Below, piece after piece: positions 34,401 to 35,356 of a stretch of 64,000 bases of DNA. The notes beneath the pieces are model-generated. The model had not been told where the DNA came from. It saw nothing but the letters and a program-made list of their open reading frames with translations, and searched no databases. The position numbers and the translations under genes are program-made. Source of the DNA: Candidatus Woesearchaeota archaeon (lineage in GTDB: Archaea; Nanobdellota; Nanobdellia; Woesearchaeales; UBA10216); assembly GCA_016180195.1 (NCBI GenBank), contig JACPBS010000004.1:81485-145484 (forward strand). The letters run 5' to 3'. The first letter of the stretch is position 1, and each line of letters begins with the position of its first letter.

Positions 34401-34516
34401 AAATTAACAAAAAAAACACCCGGTTTATAAATTTTTTTAGCAGGACTACTTTTAAATAACTACATCGATTTTTTATGCAAAACTATAAAAAAGGCCATTC
34501 TACTCTTCACAACCAT

Positions 34517-34688
34517 GCCGAGGTCGCATAGCCTGGCCATTGCGGTAGATTGCTAGGTGCTTCTTGTGCCTATGAAACTTTCAATGGCCCACAGAAATCT
34601 ACTGTCCGAAAGGGCACGGGAGTTCAAACAAACTCACTGGCGTGAGATGCTCTCAATGCCAGGAGCATTGAAAGTCTCCCCCTCGGCG
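34517..34688 (+). tRNA. tRNA-Ser (GCU) with two putative introns (anticodon loop 34556-34596; T-loop about 34629-34674)
   Basis: GCCGAGG/CCTCGGC acceptor, G73; anticodon stem GTAGA/TCTAC, loop TTGCTAA; long variable arm TGTCCGAAAGGGCAC; T-stem GGGAG/CTCCC; excision leaves 85 nt. Confidence 0.85.
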
Positions 34689-34774
34689 CTTTTATTTTAA
34701 GTAGAGCATCCTGGGGTATCCAAGAAAAAAGCAACAAAGATCCGCCTCTCGGAGCTATCCTCGGCATTAAGGGC

Positions 34775-34807
34775 GGGCTTTGAACCCAACACGAAATTTA
34801 TTTGTAA
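34775..34807. repeat. 33-bp direct repeat copy 2
   Basis: GGGCTTTGAACCCAACACGAAATTTATTTGTAA. Confidence 0.8.
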
Positions 34808-34825
34808 ATCAATCAAGAAACGAGG

Positions 34826-35356
34826 CTATGCAAGCTCTTTCCTCAATGTTTTGACAGCCCAGTTTATCTGCTTGAACTTTTCATCGCTTCCTTCGGGCAT
34901 GTCAGGGTGGGATTGCTTTGAAAGGCGCTTGAACTGAAGGTTTATTGCATCAATGTCCTTGCAGTCCTGAGAAACCTGAAGTATCTCGCGGGCTTTTAGT
35001 CTTTTGTCTTCGAAGTCGTGGTCCTCGGAATACTCAAAAATAAGCTGCTCGACAGTCTTTTTCCCATCCATGACAAGGCCCACTTCATGCTCTATTACCC
35101 TGCAAAGTACATGCAGGTTGTCAATGTACCTTGCCTGCTGGGAATGGCTGAAGTTGCAGTGGTTGCCTTCTATATACCATGATACATGGGCCTTTTCCCT
35201 TTTGACTGGGTTAGCCTCATTACTTATCTCTATATCATCAACAGATATGCCTAGCTTGGTGAATGTTGAGATGATCTGGTTTGCGAATCTCACCGCTCTC
35301 CTTACATAAGAGTCTTTTACTGGCTGTATCTCGAATTCATATCCGCGGACGTTCAT
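34826..35356 (-). CDS. J-domain-like protein
   Basis: C-terminal INLQFKRLSKQSHPDMPEGSDEKFKQINWAVKTLRKEL (HPD motif). Confidence 0.65.
   Translation of the reverse strand: MNVRGYEFEIQPVKDSYVRRAVRFANQIISTFTKLGISVDDIEISNEANPVKREKAHVSWYIEGNHCNFSHSQQARYIDNLHVLCRVIEHEVGLVMDGKKTVEQLIFEYSEDHDFEDKRLKAREILQVSQDCKDIDAINLQFKRLSKQSHPDMPEGSDEKFKQINWAVKTLRKELA

Follow-up and report, generated by a model that had tools for sequence, protein, structure and literature searches.

An apparently single-copy archaeal tRNA-Ser(GCU) gene with two predicted introns, one belonging to a T-loop intron class of its order

At positions 34517–34688 (+) of the window, the whole 64-kb stretch of DNA analysed here, the sequence can be read directly as a tRNA-Ser(GCU) precursor with two introns, one of them inside the T-loop. 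No tRNA was found anywhere in the window by ARAGORN or by Rfam at its gathering threshold. With introns allowed, ARAGORN found nothing if intron 1 alone was removed and mis-typed the sequence as Ser(aga) if intron 2 alone was removed; the spliced 85-mer was called tRNA-Ser(gct). The original prediction had warned that a simple search could miss or mis-type this gene, as proved to be the case. A covariance model (R3) was built from eight naturally intronless tRNA-Ser genes (seven GCU and one GGA) from other genomes of the order, with no sequence from the host genome. Run over the window with default filters, R3 returned 34517–34688 as its sole match, at full length (74.6 bits; E 1.8e-15), and this match is not due to chance. 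Its alignment puts insertions after positions 37 and 59; in this check, set beforehand as a possible refutation, the model accepts the gene with exactly two insertions. Searching a 601-nt stretch without filters gave a partial match at best (29.4 bits); the full-length alignment is preferred, since all exon bases are consistent with it. Another weak match of the tRNA-Ser model, at 34765–34847 (−) around GGGTTCAAAGCCC, is probably a chance one; a permuted or split tRNA near 34740–34850 (−) was rejected, since the match there scores only 9.5 bits, with an E-value of 0.044 over 601 nt.

Exon 1 (34517–34555, +) comprises the acceptor 5′ strand, the D arm, the anticodon stem 5′ strand and the loop as far as A37, with the anticodon GCT at 34552–34554 (+). 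The 41-nt intron 1 (34556–34596, +) occupies position 37/38 and is followed by exon 2 (34597–34628, +), which runs from A38 through the anticodon stem 3′ strand, the long variable arm and the T stem 5′ strand to the T-loop sequence TTCAAA. The 46-nt intron 2 (34629–34674, +) lies at T-loop position 59/60, with the 3′ end TGAAAG^T, and exon 3 (34675–34688, +) supplies T60, the 3′ strands of the T stem and acceptor, and the discriminator G73; both introns coincide with the R3 insertions, and the exact junctions are 34555/34556, 34596/34597, 34628/34629 and 34674/34675. Joining the exons (39 + 32 + 14 nt) gives the product of 85 nt with a class II variable arm that had been predicted, and this spliced tRNA is base-for-base like intronless orthologues, with a cloverleaf, a long variable arm, G73 and the GCU anticodon. 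The acceptor GCCGAGG/CCTCGGC, also as predicted, is Watson–Crick paired throughout, as are the anticodon and T stems; together with the ARAGORN typing and the R3 score, this upholds the proposed tRNA-Ser(GCU) identity. Reading of the flanks locates a TATA-box-like TATAAAAA at 34484–34491 (+), 26 nt upstream of the first tRNA base, and a T-rich stretch downstream at 34690–34698 (+) that may be a terminator.

As far as searched, the gene is apparently single-copy in the host, whose genome is assembled in 25 contigs and 97.5% complete. R3 gave 18 matches on this genome, 34517–34688 included, and no second GCU gene, interrupted or intronless, was recognised among them, two weak ones aside (C5:48896, E 0.066; C9:146, E 6.4). 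The other host tRNAs matched by the R3 and R1 models are Ser UGA (L010), Ser CGA (L055), Ser GGA (L114), Leu (L116 and L117), Arg, Thr, Gly, Cys and others. A Ser(GCU) tRNA reads the AGC and AGU codons, and we infer that this one is essential and that its gene is transcribed, and the transcript cleaved and ligated. The Rfam tRNA model had just 15 matches in the host genome at E up to 1e-3, far below the full set of tRNAs needed by an archaeon, and both ARAGORN and Rfam miss Ser(GCU); standard searches lose such genes, so that the tRNA complement of this lineage can seem to have gaps where there are none. Other host tRNAs, namely Asn GTT (L003, L015), Lys CTT (L012) and L025 (G000:C10:87879-87951), appear to be broken by introns at non-canonical places; in Lys(CTT) the apparent intron is at a T-stem site near 53/54, and Gly(TCC) perhaps has two T-arm introns.

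Comparison with relatives bears directly on the intron boundaries. In G004, a genome of the same family, the canonical intron of Ser(GCU) is homologous and likewise 41 nt long, and the T arm is uninterrupted: it reads GGGAGTTCAAATCTCCC, which sets the 59/60 junction with single-base precision. The two introns originally proposed, of 41 nt at 37/38 (absent from intronless orthologues) and of about 46 nt in the T-loop, are both borne out by this comparison and by the R3 insertions. The canonical intron alone is also present in Ser(GCU) of G005, G007, G012 and G017, and in a survey of 145 genomes drawn from the order it recurs across many families, with several genomes lacking it; intronless Ser(GCU) genes were found in seven genomes. 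A T-loop intron interrupts Ser(GCU) in four other genomes (G018, G150, G027 and G082), each time with the 3′ end TGAAAG^T. The G018 gene has three introns, and its congeners G016 and G017 have no T-loop intron in Ser(GCU), which points to a recent gain or loss. Ser(GCU) genes with an extra insertion in or before the anticodon stem were seen in G018 (L079), G023 (L080) and G016 (L032).

Within the host genome, the 59/60 intron ending TGAAAG^T is found in seven tRNAs besides Ser(GCU): Ser(GGA), Pro(UGG), Ile(GAU), Arg(CCU), Leu(UAG), Ala(CGC) and Asp(GUC), the last a reading by inspection of a tRNA that ARAGORN named Tyr. The pattern GTTCRAA-N8..38-TGAAAGTC has six matches in this genome and its reversed control none; the eight T-loop introns are these six together with Ala(CGC), which has a longer intron, and Ser(GCU). 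Each of the eight sits in the T arm of a tRNA whose T stem has five paired positions. In the folded T arms the outer helix is the T stem and the central helix is formed by UUCA or UUCG with UGAA, and the 3′ bulge AG^U is present in 8/8 genes. An archaeal bulge-helix-bulge (BHB) intron has an outer helix, a central helix of about 4 bp, and 3-nt bulges that are cut after the second base. A strict 3-nt 5′ bulge was seen in Arg(CCU) and, when the central helix was enforced, in Ser(GCU) of G018 and G027. In the host Ser(GCU), TGAA of intron 2 (34669–34672, +) pairs with the T-loop TTCA at 34623–34626, and the 5′ bulge is enlarged, making the motif looser than a strict BHB; the modelled site fits a BHB in relaxed form, cut two bases into each bulge, and excision is predicted. 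At the 37/38 site the 3′ bulge AA^A and the TTG:CAG central helix are conserved; in the host gene this helix is 3 bp long, and at the 5′ site an inner helix does not close.

Across the order, the T-loop pattern occurs in 82 of the 145 genomes, with about 218 matches by hand addition compared with about 49 in the reversed control, so that most, though not all, of these matches are probably real. The T-loop introns of the host Ser(GGA) (L114; G000:C5:37900-38300) and Ala(CGC) (L115; G000:C5:123900-124700) share ATGGTT...CCAATARCCACTGAAAG, a likeness that suggests intron copying between tRNA genes. Three near-identical introns of the T-loop type were noted in G136 (C139:4118, C225:2857 and C225:3541), two of them about 700 bases apart, with similar introns in G082, G069 and G110; judged by pattern alone these are candidate tRNA introns, and they look like a mobile intron family.

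The host has an RtcB gene and one PF01974 gene encoding EndA (177 aa; L016:1255-1788, G000:C21), the latter on the same contig about 9 kb past the window end. The best solved relatives of this EndA include N. equitans NEQ205 (3iey_A) and M. jannaschii EndA (1a79), and it is without the insertion found in 3p1z_B, which we take to be the Aeropyrum enzyme. Among named genomes, most of its relatives come from Candidatus Woesearchaeota (the best 80% identical), with some titled Nanoarchaeota or otherwise, which places the host in or near the Woesearchaeota (DPANN). PF01974 was matched in 134 of the 145 genomes, with a single match in nearly all; two matches were found in G016, G053, G132, G143 and G155, at least one of those in G016 and in G132 being a fragment at a contig end. 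None of 30 order members aligned with the host EndA has an insertion of the 3p1z_B type, and, judged by sequence, the host enzyme does not show the features of broad-specificity EndA, that is, an (alpha-beta)2 or epsilon-2 form with a CSL or ASL loop.

We are highly confident that this is an apparently single-copy tRNA-Ser(GCU) gene with two introns cut at BHB motifs by a lone alpha-type EndA and exons joined by RtcB. The tRNA would be transcribed with both introns, and the host's single EndA would cut each of them at its BHB. At 59/60 the T stem would serve as outer helix and the T-loop TTCA with the intron TGAA as central helix, with cuts after A59 and after the last AG of intron 2; at 37/38 the anticodon stem would be the outer helix, with the anticodon-loop TTG paired to the intron CAG; and RtcB would then join the exons into the 85-nt tRNA.

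Were the T-loop insertion disabling, or an assembly error, this copy would be a pseudogene, its working counterpart for Ser(GCU) lying in the missing 2.5% of the genome. The fragmented and slightly incomplete assembly allows for this, but all stems are intact, the ends of intron 2 fit the T-loop, and an insertion of the same form is found at the same place in seven other host tRNAs and in Ser(GCU) elsewhere, and we consider a pseudogene very improbable. Reviews hold that alpha-only EndA is inefficient on relaxed motifs (PMC6379350), and with the host Ser(GCU) motif loose on its 5′ side, EndA might need an undetected second subunit or other factor to cut in the T-loop. This is unlikely given the one PF01974 gene in the host, nearly always one in the order, and the several sister T-loop motifs that are strict or nearly so. 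In the order, EndA is by sequence alpha-type and without relaxed-substrate loops, and so simple an enzyme would have been less expected beside introns of this kind, which are common in the lineage; the host genome itself is intron-rich. The lineage appears to misfit the alpha-only rule, with the reservation that in many cases its T-loop motifs come close to the strict form.

Intron 1 contains CAATGGCC (34582–34589, +), complementary to the D-arm strand GGCCATTG (34535–34542, +) and co-varying between families. This complement follows the D arm of each genome: the pairs are GGCTATTG/CAATAGCC in G034, GGTATAG/CTATACC in G059, G150 and G027, GGTATCG/CGATACC in G012, and others. Over 29 sequences the mean complementarity score was 16.6 for matched pairs, compared with 13.5 ± 0.54 for introns permuted among genomes (0/5000 reaching 16.6) and 12.2 for shuffled introns; in a 24-sequence alignment pairs 15:70 (CG 10, UA 8) and 18:67 (UA 9, AU 3, CG 1) co-vary, changes on both sides occupy 12 cells versus 3.8 in shuffles, and 75% of D-arm:intron cells pair versus at most 51% when slid, although the sequences are related, so that the counts are inflated and those from permutation and shuffling are not strict probabilities. 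In the free fold of the precursor, the D-arm:intron helix is favoured over the anticodon stem (−69.7 versus −66.7 kcal/mol with the anticodon stem enforced), and it may be a pseudoknot partner or part of an earlier fold that opens before the 37/38 cut. Also in intron 1, a stretch like GARACCTAC is conserved between the hairpin and the D-arm complement in Ser(GCU) of many genomes. A 9-nt pairing of intron 1 CTTTCAATG with intron 2 CATTGAAAG was set aside as probably coincidental, G004 having CTTACAATG and no T-loop intron.

We give slightly less than an even chance to the proposal that, across the order, the canonical intron of Ser(GCU) pairs with the D arm of the precursor in which it lies, in a helix that is under selection, co-varies and serves as a structural or timing element; the timing or folding role is one we infer, and no precedent for it was found in the searchable open literature on tRNA introns. 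A shade more tentative is the view that intron 1 acts on its own tRNA, with the D-arm helix either timing folding or splicing, or guiding modification of the D arm. The tracking of each D arm, matched by no permutation, and the two co-varying pairs argue for such action, and the H. volcanii tRNA-Trp intron, a box C/D guide for 2′-O-methylation (PMC4090602), offers a precedent; but the complement is missing from some orthologues (L077, L078), some genomes have no intron, and kinship among the sequences weakens the statistics. A box C/D or H/ACA guide within intron 1 was rejected: inspection by eye of the intron and its orthologues revealed neither box C (RUGAUGA) nor box D (CUGA), the pairing is continuous and offers no free target U of the kind required by an H/ACA guide, and ACA at the end of the intron is accounted for as the anticodon-loop complement. 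A role for intron 1 is compatible with splicing of both introns by EndA and RtcB.

Multi-intron archaeal tRNAs are already known, and the host gene adds one more; most of the interest lies in the wider patterns: a single order with a class of T-loop introns, an EndA that is alpha-only, and the D-arm:intron helix. No treatment of Woesearchaeota tRNA introns was found among the open-access papers searched. The order offers a test case for the idea that introns have spread in step with the subunit type of EndA and its loop insertions.

The multi-intron tRNA genes of Thermoproteales, in the accounts of Sugahara (2008) and Fujishima (2010) as cited in PMC4033280 and PMC8450103, resemble those described here in carrying two or three BHB introns, predicted ones in the host lineage, within one tRNA, in having non-canonical positions that include the T arm, and in signs of intron copying between tRNA genes; the host, however, belongs to a different phylum, and its single EndA is alpha-type, with no Crenarchaea-specific loop, rather than (alpha-beta)2. 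ARMAN-2 (Micrarchaeota), too, is ultrasmall and has tRNA introns at a range of positions (PMC6379350, PMC4033280, PMC12397907), but has an epsilon-2 EndA, whereas the 177-aa host enzyme is no three-unit fusion and has no ASL-like insertion. The archaeal H. volcanii tRNA-Trp intron resembles intron 1 in its sequence relationship to the tRNA that it interrupts; here no box C/D motifs were seen, and the intron is instead complementary to the D arm and co-varies with it across families. Among solved enzymes the host EndA is closest by sequence to NEQ205 of Nanoarchaeum equitans, where EndA consists of NEQ205 and NEQ261; no NEQ261-like second subunit was found in the host and, unlike the split tRNAs of N. 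equitans, its tRNA-Ser(GCU) is predicted to be cis-spliced from one transcript.
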